Notes under the pieces: model-generated
The model's input: only the letters and a program-made list of their open reading frames with translations
Told to the model about the DNA's origin: nothing
Databases searched by the model: none
Assembly: GCA_029881805.1 (NCBI GenBank)
Contig: JAOULW010000014.1
Location: forward strand, 1 to 53,813
From: Candidatus Bathyarchaeota archaeon
GTDB lineage: Archaea; Thermoproteota; Bathyarchaeia; Bathyarchaeales; Bathycorpusculaceae
Reading direction: 5' to 3'
Length of the DNA stretch: 53,813 bases
Made by a program: the position numbers and the translations under genes
In this document: one piece after another, positions 46,113 through 53,813 of the stretch
Numbering within the stretch: the stretch's first letter is position 1
How the letters are laid out: each line of letters opens with the position of its first letter

Positions 46113-46165
46113 AAGTTCCCATTCTTTTCAATTGCAGTTGATGCTTGTCTTAAGCTTGTGTGCGC

Positions 46166-46576
46166 ATGGAAGAAAACTCGGAAATTGACAAACTAAACAA
46201 CATATGCAAGGAAGCAAAAGTCGAAGAAAAACTAACTGGCAAGAACTTGACCAAACTCTACGAGATCTTCGGTCAGCGATTCACAAAGGCTTTTGAAGCT
46301 TTGAAAGAAGGTCGTGTAAAGAAGTATGTTTTCAAACCAAGTGGCAGAACAGTTTGGATTGTGGTGGGAAATGAGCGAGACTACCTAATAATGCCTAAAG
46401 CCGAGTTTTGTACTTGCGACGACTTTTACTTTCGCGTTCTGGACAAGGAAGTGCACTTATGCTACCATTTAATAGCGCAGAAAATAGCCAATGCTTTCGC
46501 TTGGTATGAAACAATAGAAGAGCGTGACGAACTCTACGATACGTTAATGAATGAGTGGAAAGAGGTTATTATTTAA
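46166..46576 (+). CDS. SWIM zinc-finger domain protein
   Basis: A 136-residue protein. The SWIM motif is visible as FCTCDDFYFRVLDKEVHLCYHLIAQ (C-x-C-xn-C-x-H). SWIM domains bind DNA or proteins and occur in recombination mediators such as Sws1 homologues, but a recombination role here is only a possibility. The N-terminal helical part (EEKLTGKNLTKLYEIFGQRF) is unassigned. GTG 46160 opens the frame; I prefer ATG 46166. Confidence 0.8.
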   Translation: MEENSEIDKLNNICKEAKVEEKLTGKNLTKLYEIFGQRFTKAFEALKEGRVKKYVFKPSGRTVWIVVGNERDYLIMPKAEFCTCDDFYFRVLDKEVHLCYHLIAQKIANAFAWYETIEERDELYDTLMNEWKEVII

Positions 46577-50240: not shown

Positions 50241-51005
50241 TCATGAATCGTTTCGCATGGAGGCAACGAAAATTTCGGCTGAACGTCCCGAGGACTTGCA
50301 GCAAATTCCAGGTATTTTCTCAACTTTCACTTCTGAAAAATGCTGTCGAGCCATTTCACGGATATTTTCTGGTTTGAAACCTAAATGCACGTCGCCCATT
50401 TCCATCTTGAACTCTTCGAACGTGTGCTCACACATATCAATAAGGATGGCTTTTCCATTCTTTTTTAAAGTTGCCTTGATACTTTTGAAAACCTTCTCTG
50501 GGTGGGTGCTGTGGTGAAGCATTAAGGTGGAAAATACTGCGTCAAACTTGTAAGGGATAGGGAAGTGCTTTCTCGCCTCTTTTATACTGCCCTCAATGTT
50601 TTCGGCTATGCCTACGAAAGGCACTACGTCAGCGTTCTTTTTCTCCAACGAGAATAGCATTGCTGGAGTCAGATCCATTGCGTAAAAGGAAACTTCCGGA
50701 AGCTTTGCGCTGATTTTTTTGGCGATTTTGACTGTTAGAAACCCCGTTCCAGCGCCTATATCAAGCACATTTGCACCTGCCAGAAGTCTTGGCGGCGCAA
50801 GCAAAAGCTTGGTGACATTGTTGACGATTCGATTTACTCCAGTTCTTCCAAAATAGCTAACGACAATCTTGTCCCTTTTCTTCGCCTCTTTTGTCGTAAA
50901 ATGCTCTACTTCTTTGGCGAGAATTTCGGGATTGGAAGCACCTAGTCTCTTAAAAAACTGTTTAAGCTGCAGATCTTTTATGTATCTCTCTAACTTTGTT
51001 GACAT
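50241..51005 (-). CDS. Class I SAM-dependent methyltransferase
   Basis: A 254-residue methyltransferase. Motif I is ANVLDIGAGTGFLTVKIA, motif II region SFYAMDLTPAMLFSLEKK, and YKFDAVFSTLMLHHSTHPEKVF with GKAILIDMCEH complete the fold. The first 75 residues form a helical cap (YIKDLQLKQFFKRLGASNPE). Starts at ATG 51005. Acceptor substrate unknown; ubiquinone/menaquinone-type or small-molecule methyltransferases have similar layout. It follows the permease gene by 30 bases. Confidence 0.87.
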   Translation of the reverse strand: MSTKLERYIKDLQLKQFFKRLGASNPEILAKEVEHFTTKEAKKRDKIVVSYFGRTGVNRIVNNVTKLLLAPPRLLAGANVLDIGAGTGFLTVKIAKKISAKLPEVSFYAMDLTPAMLFSLEKKNADVVPFVGIAENIEGSIKEARKHFPIPYKFDAVFSTLMLHHSTHPEKVFKSIKATLKKNGKAILIDMCEHTFEEFKMEMGDVHLGFKPENIREMARQHFSEVKVEKIPGICCKSSGRSAEIFVASMRNDS

Positions 51006-51035: not shown

Positions 51036-53450
51036 TTAGGCTTCATCTAGAGACAAGCCAATTAAGAAAAGTCCTGTGATAAAAAGTAAGACTAATCCAA
51101 TTGGAACAATAGAGACCCACCATGCAGGCAACCCTCCTAGTTGGTACGCACCATAAAGAATGCGACCCCAACTTGCTTGGTTGGGGTCACCGAATCCCAG
51201 AAAATCTATTGACGTGAGAATTAGTGAAACGCTTATTGCTGTAAGGCAAAAGTTTGCCAGTGAATATTTTAATAGAGCATAAGCTTCGTCTCTCCTGGAC
51301 TTTTCATGTACTAAGCTTGTCAAGTATACAGTTCTAAATCCTATTATGGCGATCACTGGAAGGAACCAGAACAGAACTGATAAGGATTCGAGATAAAAAG
51401 TATACTGGTAGCGTAAGGAAATCAACAAAAGGAAAATCACAGGTACTGCAAAGAAAGTTTCCGCAGCAGTCATTATAATGTTGTCTGTCCAGCCCTTGAA
51501 GCGTCCTGCAAGAACCCCAAAGGGCAAGGCTAAGAGCACAGTCAAAGCAGAAAACGCAAAACTCATCACTATGATTGTTCTTGCACCGTAGACCAATTCA
51601 GTCCATACATCTAGACCGCTGCCGTCAGTTCCTAATAAACCATGTACCTTCCCCTCTATTGTTAAACCCACTTTTTCAAGGTTCAGTTCGGCATACGCAC
51701 CTTCGTATGAATGGGTTTTTGGATCCATCAAGTTCTCAAATTCAAACATTACTTGGACTCCGTAGACGCCTTTTTCTGAAAAAATTATCGTGGCAGGATC
51801 AGGCGGTGGCGTAATCAGTTTTTCTGGTTTGTAAAGTGAGCTTAGAACTGGCTGCCATGGTACATCGATAAACGAGGGGACACTCAGATTGAACGTTTTT
51901 TGGTCTATGGTTATATTAGCTATGGGCACTGACCAGGGTGTATATTGACATATTAACATCTCCGCTTTAGTTGGGTCTTTAAAATACTCATCCCACAAGG
52001 GATTCGCTGTGTAGTTTTTGATTGTGAAGTAGACTCTTAGTATCGTTCTATTGAAGTACATGTTACAAGAAACGTGCATTGTAAATGAAGGGGGCGGCCT
52101 GTAATCATACGTTATGTTACCCACAAATATTGTGACCGATGCATTCTGTGATATAAAACCGTCAGGGTCAGGATTGAAACTGAATGTAAGATTATCCAAG
52201 TTGACTTCAATCGGGCCAGTATAATTGACTAATTCTACATCTTCAGGTCTGAAAGTTGTGGCTAAAGTGGGATTATAATCCCGGTATTCCGGAAACATAG
52301 TCATCCAAGCTGGCATTGCATATGCACTTGCAGATTTAGGAGGGCTGTATAATTGTGAAGGAGGAGGAGAGGGCGTTAAAAGCGGCGCGGCTACGGCTAA
52401 AACAGCGAAGAAAGAGAAAATTGTTAAGCCGATGATTAAGCTTTTTCTCTTGAAGTGTGCTGCAAACTTGCTTTTAGTCAGTGATCTTTTATTTGGTTGT
52501 GTTTCAATTTTAGAGTGTTGTAGGGACGCATTCTCCAGATCATCGCGTAAGCCAGTACTTACTTGCAGTAAGTCAAGAAAAGAGGACATTATTCCTAAAC
52601 CTATTGCGATTGCAAGCAGAGCAACGAATGATGCGATAGTAACAGGGTGATTGTGCATCCCTAGACTAGACATAAACCATTGACCTGCGCCTGGAAAGGC
52701 ATACATAATTTCCACGAAAAATGCAGCTGAGGCCATGAAAGCGAAGTCGATTGTCGTGATGGAGAAAAGAAAAATCTTCCATGGGCTTTTTTGGCTCAAG
52801 GAAGAGCCACCACTCCAAATTAACATGGCACTTCTAATGGCAGTTACGAGCGTTATGGTTAAAACAGGCAGAACAAGATGAGCGAGAAAGTCCATGGCGG
52901 CTTCTATTGGCGTCATTTTCGAAATACCCACCGAAATTAATCCGCCTCTAGGAAATAATCTCAGGAGAAACCAGAAAATATAGATAAGTATTATGGCTAT
53001 GAAAGGGGTCAAACCGAAAAGGAAGCATTTTAGGGAATGGGCAAAAATCACTGGTCTTCGTTTTTTTGGCTTGCGTGTGGAAAATATGACGGTAAGAAGG
53101 GCTCCTGCCAGAATGGAAGCCGCTGTCGAAAAACCAATCAGCATAAGAGTGTTTCTTATTCTCCATGAAAGTTCAGGCAAAATCGGTGTGCTGCTCTGAT
53201 CAAGTTGTCTACCGAAATTCCACTGAAGTATATGGTTCAAAAGCGAACTGAAGTTTTTCACTATTTCGAACTGTTCCATTCTTACTTGTGGTGGCATTCT
53301 AGGATCTACGAAAATCTGTGCTGGATCACCGAGTCTGAACCAGAAAAAGGAACAAAGCCATGCTATAATGATGTAATAAAGCAGAGCGAGCGCTATGGGC
53401 TTGGCAGCTACACGAAAGTACCTTTTGAGAAGCCCTCCGGCAGCATCCAT
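51036..53450 (-). CDS. Fused OppB-OppC-type ABC transporter permease with extracytoplasmic insertion
   Basis: An 804-residue protein that joins both permease halves of a peptide/nickel ABC importer. Residues 1-305 are OppB-like (WNFGRQLDQSSTPILPELSWRIRNT; later FFVEIMYAFPGAGQWF). Residues 335-804 are OppC-like, with TM1 near 337-357 and the hallmark HGLLGTDGSGLDVWTELVYGAR near 603. Between TM1 and that motif lie about 245 extra residues (358-602) with many NxS/T sites and beta-type sequence, probably outside the cell. No ATPase or binding protein is in the window. Start ATG 53450. Confidence 0.88.
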   Translation of the reverse strand: MDAAGGLLKRYFRVAAKPIALALLYYIIIAWLCSFFWFRLGDPAQIFVDPRMPPQVRMEQFEIVKNFSSLLNHILQWNFGRQLDQSSTPILPELSWRIRNTLMLIGFSTAASILAGALLTVIFSTRKPKKRRPVIFAHSLKCFLFGLTPFIAIILIYIFWFLLRLFPRGGLISVGISKMTPIEAAMDFLAHLVLPVLTITLVTAIRSAMLIWSGGSSLSQKSPWKIFLFSITTIDFAFMASAAFFVEIMYAFPGAGQWFMSSLGMHNHPVTIASFVALLAIAIGLGIMSSFLDLLQVSTGLRDDLENASLQHSKIETQPNKRSLTKSKFAAHFKRKSLIIGLTIFSFFAVLAVAAPLLTPSPPPSQLYSPPKSASAYAMPAWMTMFPEYRDYNPTLATTFRPEDVELVNYTGPIEVNLDNLTFSFNPDPDGFISQNASVTIFVGNITYDYRPPPSFTMHVSCNMYFNRTILRVYFTIKNYTANPLWDEYFKDPTKAEMLICQYTPWSVPIANITIDQKTFNLSVPSFIDVPWQPVLSSLYKPEKLITPPPDPATIIFSEKGVYGVQVMFEFENLMDPKTHSYEGAYAELNLEKVGLTIEGKVHGLLGTDGSGLDVWTELVYGARTIIVMSFAFSALTVLLALPFGVLAGRFKGWTDNIIMTAAETFFAVPVIFLLLISLRYQYTFYLESLSVLFWFLPVIAIIGFRTVYLTSLVHEKSRRDEAYALLKYSLANFCLTAISVSLILTSIDFLGFGDPNQASWGRILYGAYQLGGLPAWWVSIVPIGLVLLFITGLFLIGLSLDEA

Positions 53451-53465
53451 GTCTAGGTCACTTTA

Positions 53466-53813
53466 TCATTTAGGCTGTTCTTGCTTTTGTTGTCTGATCA
53501 GAATTTTTGGACTTACCAACCCGGCGATGCTGGAACATAAGCAAATCCAACCACCGGCGAGAGGTGAAAGAAACGCAACAAAGCTTGAGATAATCATTGT
53601 AAGAGTCGTGAAAATAGCACTCAACAGTGCCCCAGCATATATCAAGTGCATTCCTACTTCAATCTTCACTAGTTTCAGGACCGCTCCGAAAATCATAAAA
53701 CAGCCAAAGAGAATCAGAAAGTTAAAGGCTGTGCTCGCAAAAGCCAAGTTGAGCGATTCAGCTGTGAATTCTCCAACTTGAAATGCATTAAGCTGCTCGG
53801 ATGTTTCATTGGC
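53466..53813 (-). CDS. Membrane protein, 5' end outside window
   Basis: The frame is open from the window edge (NETSEQLNAFQVGE then SLNLAFASTAF) to the stop at 53466, about 115 codons visible. It has three hydrophobic segments (roughly FLILFGCFMIFGAVL, IYAGALLSAIFTTLTMIISSFVAFL, GWICLCSSIAGLV) and a short basic tail. It lies 15 bases upstream of the fused permease, so it is probably in the same operon. Family not recognised. Confidence 0.65.
   Translation of the reverse strand, partial: ANETSEQLNAFQVGEFTAESLNLAFASTAFNFLILFGCFMIFGAVLKLVKIEVGMHLIYAGALLSAIFTTLTMIISSFVAFLSPLAGGWICLCSSIAGLVSPKILIRQQKQEQPK

Follow-up and report, generated by a model that had tools for sequence, protein, structure and literature searches.

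ABC-importer permeases are normally recognised by their ATP-coupling loops, and single-chain permeases of the FbpB type retain two EAA motifs and operate together with an ATPase. The closest described systems to the protein reported here are OppB/OppC and DppB/DppC (M. tuberculosis OppABCD, 8j5q; E. coli DppBCDF, 8z1v-8z1z), in which the two halves are separate chains and the EAA loops are present. Each permease-ATPase contact in E. coli DppBCDF is described as being mediated by an EAA helix (PMC12136057). A precedent for a fused permease is the FbpBC permease of Thermus thermophilus (9j4r_A), with two halves in one chain. We describe here an archaeal protein that is like OppB/OppC and DppB/DppC in sequence and predicted fold in both halves, but that forms one chain from which the EAA loops have been lost. 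The window analysed, a stretch of 53,813 nucleotides, is the entire contig C13 of a 2.2 Mb, 39-contig genome (G000).

Architecture of the fusion protein

The fusion gene has an ATG start and zero internal stops, and its product aligns to OppB over residues ~1-310 and to OppC over residues ~323-804. Its features are as follows.

51036..53450 (-), EAA-less OppB-OppC fusion, 804 aa in a single frame
52521..53450 (-), OppB half, residues 1-310 (alignment and AlphaFold model)
53184..53330 (-), scoop region of the OppB half, an outward loop that follows its first span, residues 41-89 (21/49 identities with C33 OppB)
52773..52823 (-), remnant of the OppB-half TM4-TM5 cytoplasmic loop, residues about 210-226, EAA helix absent (alignments, anchor spacing)
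52485..52520 (-), linker between the halves, residues about 311-322 (alignment)
51645..52379 (-), outside domain, a predicted beta-sandwich spanning residues 358-602 (126/237 identities with C33 OppC)
51036..51644 (-), OppC-half membrane core, residues 603-804 plus stop (alignment, AlphaFold model)
51252..51317 (-), remnant of the OppC-half TM4-TM5 loop, residues about 712-733, EAA motif unrecognisable (alignments, anchor spacing)
51123..51197 (-), TM5-TM6 loop on the outward side of the OppC half, residues 752-776 (21/25 identities with C33 OppC)

In the AlphaFold model of the fusion (pLDDT 70.7, pTM 0.67), the first half matched OppB (8j5q_B, Z 18.2) and the second half DppC (8z1x_B, Z 17.1), with the permease fold present in both. 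The single-chain FbpBC permease aligned across both halves over 396 residues (Z 17.0). The open frame, the alignments and these structure matches together bear out the original prediction of both permease halves in one 804-residue protein. Pfam scores for the window fusion were below cut-off for both BPD_transp_1 (22 bits, cut-off 26.4) and OppC_N (19.5, cut-off 23.9).

Loss of both EAA loops

In intact relatives, the EAA coupling helix lies within the TM4-TM5 loop. Both of these cytoplasmic loops are deleted or unrecognisable in the fusion, a feature that the original prediction had missed. Alignments showed no EAA motif left in the OppB half and none that could be recognised in the OppC half; the basic C-terminal tail of OppC was missing as well. 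Anchor spacing in the OppB half was 57 in both the window fusion and a second fusion, from genome G118, compared with at least 79 in all 37 measurable controls (46 collected, 9 without anchors). For the OppC half, the spacing was 128 in the window fusion and 139 in that of G118, compared with at least 154 in all 28 controls that could be measured (23 of the 51 collected lacked anchors). The OppC-half loss was not visible in a count of loop columns in the global alignment, given that the gaps fell elsewhere, and anchor spacing was used instead; a loose EAA expression matched only 39/46 and 33/51 controls and was left out of the evidence. The sequences thus show the loss of both coupling loops, and the fusion, unlike FbpB-type permeases, has no recognisable EAA motif in either half.

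In the known structures of Dpp, OppD and OppF dock on the loops that are lost here. Ordinary import driven by ATP should therefore be impossible, and OppD and OppF would, by homology, be unable to drive the fusion. A literature search conducted largely at abstract level found no paper on an EAA-less OppB-OppC fusion.

A second fusion in another family

G118, a genome of the same order as the window genome but of another family, consists of one contig of 1.5 Mb. Its fusion is a single open frame over both halves (907 aa) with the same loop losses, preceded by an extra N-terminal membrane domain of ~147 residues; OppC_N scored above the Pfam cut-off, and BPD_transp_1 was not reported. The two fusions are alike in their fused chain, their loop losses and the union of their membrane parts in trees, and differ in this N-terminal domain and in an outside domain of another lineage. 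A family search with the N-terminal domain gave no clear family, and separate relatives of it (L040:1042-1482), 33-55% identical, were observed in G115, G117, G110 and G105.

Among 256 genomes of the class searched at E<=1e-20, 17 had a match, with a fused frame only in the window genome and G118. No further fusion was found among 398 genomes of the phylum (E<=1e-40, 4 matched) or in two scans of an 84,980-species collection, which reach close relatives only and yielded a relative once, the G118 record in the second scan. The search for other fusions that had been proposed therefore yielded one. It had also been proposed that orthologues might be two separate genes and the fusion the result of an assembly join. 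Intact relatives are indeed two separate genes, but the second fusion, with the same losses, sits in a single-contig genome, so an assembly join is ruled out: the fusion is rare but no assembly artefact. Common origin of the two fusions is favoured over independent origin, since their OppB halves share 112/281 identities, more than that of the window shares with the best of four intact OppBs compared (87/278); long-branch attraction remains a caveat.

The outside domain is ordinary for the group

The inserted domain of the window fusion stands after the first OppC span. It was predicted to be rich in N-glycosylation-type sites, and it contains 8 N-x-S/T sites, where shuffling gives a mean of 1.76 (0/2000 shuffles reach 8), the remaining 559 residues having 2; the outside domain of C33 OppC also has 8. 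The accompanying claim that normal OppC linkers are a few dozen residues long does not hold for this group. Among 51 non-fusion OppC-like ORFs, which were fetched as matches to the fusion and are hence biased to the long form, a GTD anchor was present in 43, with at least 200 residues before it in 31/43 and at most 130 in 12/43. Domains of the same kind are found in separate OppC genes of the same genome (C33 and C22) and in many relatives. By these comparisons, the outside domain is ordinary for the group and is not the distinguishing trait of the fusion.

The predicted structure of the domain is a beta-sandwich (pLDDT 74.3). Its best structural match was CBM86 (Z 9.1), followed by CBM27, Eph receptors and others at about 8, and there was no Foldseek match at E<=0.001. 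Structure prediction of residues 358-602 thus gave a fold but no function, the matches being too weak and mixed for one to be assigned.

Domain histories and the outer face

The two fusions united in trees of the OppC core (support 100/99) and of the OppB half (100/100). In the outside-domain tree, the window fusion instead grouped with C33 OppC from the same genome (100/99); that of G118 was weakly placed among six rows, five from its own family (f6) and one (G172) from that of the window. AU tests rejected the fusions as one clade for the outside domain (p 7.5e-9), and rejected window plus C33 for both membrane parts (core, p 0.0023; OppB half, p 0.0012). With the caveat of long branches, these tests reject a single history for the whole protein, the membrane parts and the outside domain appearing to differ.

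Identities were then compared between outward and membrane/inner zones, which were set from model helices and known topology after sliding identities had been seen, with residues treated as independent in the tests. The window fusion and C33 were identical at 189/358 outward positions (52.8%) compared with 105/390 membrane/inner positions (26.9%, p 5e-13), and at 57/109 compared with 105/390 when the outside domain was omitted (p 1.5e-6). The three intact pairs showed the reverse, with outward and membrane/inner identities of 134/333 and 255/389 for C33-G115, 100/305 and 209/389 for C33-G040, and 101/309 and 222/389 for G115-G040. There was no difference for the window fusion and G115 (99/339 and 104/391), and the two fusions leaned the opposite way (88/298 and 146/379, p 0.015). 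The G118 fusion and G040 differed in the same direction as window-C33, but weakly (111/296 and 101/367, p 0.007), and G118-C33 showed no difference (82/292 and 94/368). The outer face of the window fusion thus shows, at the level of sequence, a match kept to the C33 transporter. This holds for the outside domain, for the first outward loop in the OppB half and for the OppC-half TM5-TM6 loop. Given that codon-position differences were ordered 3>1>2 in 5/5 comparisons, the fusion protein is under constraint.

Partner systems and binding proteins

The C33 locus encodes a separate OppB (327 aa), an OppC (521 aa) with the same outside domain, OppD, OppF and a divergent binding protein, of which 500 residues precede the contig end that cuts it. 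C22 is another such system of the same genome, with a long OppC, OppD, OppF and a binding protein. The long OppCs of C33 and C22 and their relatives share the inserted domain with the fusion (53% identity in the domain for C33), from which they differ in being separate genes with EAA loops and, in the case of C33 and C22, with OppD, OppF and a binding protein adjoining.

The genome further encodes three proteins paralogous to the C33 binding protein, with 61-75% identity across the aligned parts, on C24 (74.5% over 499), C10 (61.5% over 478) and C3 (62.6% over 417 and 72.3% over 184). With the fusion as query, Opp-type permease matches were found only on C13, C33, C22 and C16, and the C24 and C10 binding proteins therefore look orphan. 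The C3 gene starts 443 bases from the contig start, and a different type of ABC system, which by eye is tungstate-like, lies at L065 6062-8844. The use of several binding proteins by one permease has a described precedent in P. aeruginosa DppA1-A5 (PMC4206461). G118 encodes three SBP_bac_5 proteins, none adjoining the fusion, and its only other permease match is one short-OppC operon, which could be an alternative partner for these proteins. OppD and OppF genes exist in both fusion-bearing genomes.

Several binding proteins look circularly permuted relative to Pfam SBP_bac_5, with the profile region ~145-364 first and ~3-146 second.

L009:5979-8267; G040:C2:56210-57955; G059:C8:62811-64643; G115:C95:21169-23052; L070:6017-8269, permuted-looking binding proteins (Pfam SBP_bac_5 order)

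This order was seen in 4/4 complete binding proteins beside a long OppC, across five genomes, and the protein of G000:C16, beside a short OppC, has the normal order; in the literature as searched, nothing was found on the permuted order. Other binding proteins carry a C-terminal dockerin, and a cohesin-CARDB-dockerin protein adjoins one of them (L067:7405-10263, L069:8899-11814, L066:3812-4825 for these proteins together), a possible surface-assembly system. A lone OppF-like C-terminal remnant lies beside a binding protein in G118 (L069:7062-7397; oligo_HPY 25.5 bits, below cut-off), as if an Opp operon had decayed there.

Genomic surroundings

The right edge of the window is the contig end, and no other contig of the genome was found to overlap it in an end-overlap search. 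Between the fusion and this end lies one incomplete reading frame.

53466..53813 (-), hydrophobic upstream ORF, truncated at 115 aa by the contig end and separated from the fusion by 15 bases

A family search gave no family for this ORF, which is a possible operon partner of the fusion. It is not claimed as a counterpart of the G118 N-terminal domain (BLASTP best E 2.8, family HMM 2.3 bits); the model of the two-fusion alignment (A1) ran on into it across two stops. Neither OppD/OppF nor a binding-protein gene was present downstream of the window fusion, and about 9 kb on each side of the G118 fusion contained no oligo_HPY ATPase or SBP_bac_5 match. A methyltransferase gene on the same strand (window 50241-51005) starts 30 bases after the fusion and is a possible operon neighbour. 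In both genomes, a small protein that is SWIM-like by eye is encoded no more than about 5 kb from the fusion (window 46160-46576 and L056:4456-4881); the two are similar and may be a trace of shared gene order.

Discussion

These observations point, tentatively and with somewhat less than even confidence, to a permease-derived, ATPase-uncoupled membrane receptor that docks C33-type binding proteins. As the sequence shows, an ancestral OppB-OppC pair became a single chain and both halves lost their EAA loops; by homology, the docking of OppD and OppF and ordinary ATP-driven import would have gone with them. The outward face has stayed matched to C33, the working transporter of this genome. The most likely role of the protein would be that of a cell-surface anchor, store, decoy or sensor to which the C33-type solute-binding protein and its three paralogues dock, with the solute not imported. 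Docking by the insert, which the original prediction had offered as one option, fits with the outside domain and the other outward loops being the parts that have been kept matched to C33. This receptor reading is limited by there being only two known fusions and by the weak outward match of that of G118.

The main rival, which we consider unlikely, is a decaying paralogue that has lost its job and whose outer likeness to C33 arose by gene conversion or domain exchange and not by docking. Gene conversion could by itself account for the outer match, with no role implied, and the long branches of the membrane parts, the lost functional loops, the conflicting domain histories and the rarity of fusions are all consistent with decay. 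Open frames of 804 and 907 aa have nevertheless been kept in two families, and both the codon pattern, which is ordered 3>1>2 in the membrane parts too, and the match to C33 in separate short outward loops speak against it. It is less probable still that the fusion is a transporter, with an ATPase acting via an unusual interface or with a passive path. Although both halves retain the permease fold in the AlphaFold model and OppD and OppF genes are available in both genomes, such a function would have to accommodate the loss of both EAA loops and the lack of ATPase and binding-protein matches near the G118 fusion. The other option of the original prediction, that the insert takes the place of the binding protein, would make the fusion a normal transporter with a domain that catches solute itself; this appears very improbable. 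The predicted beta-sandwich and its weak likeness to carbohydrate-binding modules such as CBM86 would suit this role, but the idea is unsupported because binding-protein genes accompany separate long OppCs that carry a domain of this kind, and the fusion is abnormal inside, in its EAA loops, where a normal transporter would not be.

More doubtfully than the receptor reading itself, the two proteins may represent a conserved class of "uncoupled permeases", that is, fused Opp permeases without ATPase-docking loops, whose outer face would be re-matched in each lineage to the working transporter of the host and which would dock the same pool of binding proteins as surface receptors or decoys. A match to the OppC family does not make a gene a transporter, and annotation should take this into account. 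If a permease has been kept for its outer face alone, binding-protein docking would be usable without transport, and such a permease would lend itself naturally to the study of docking in isolation from pumping.
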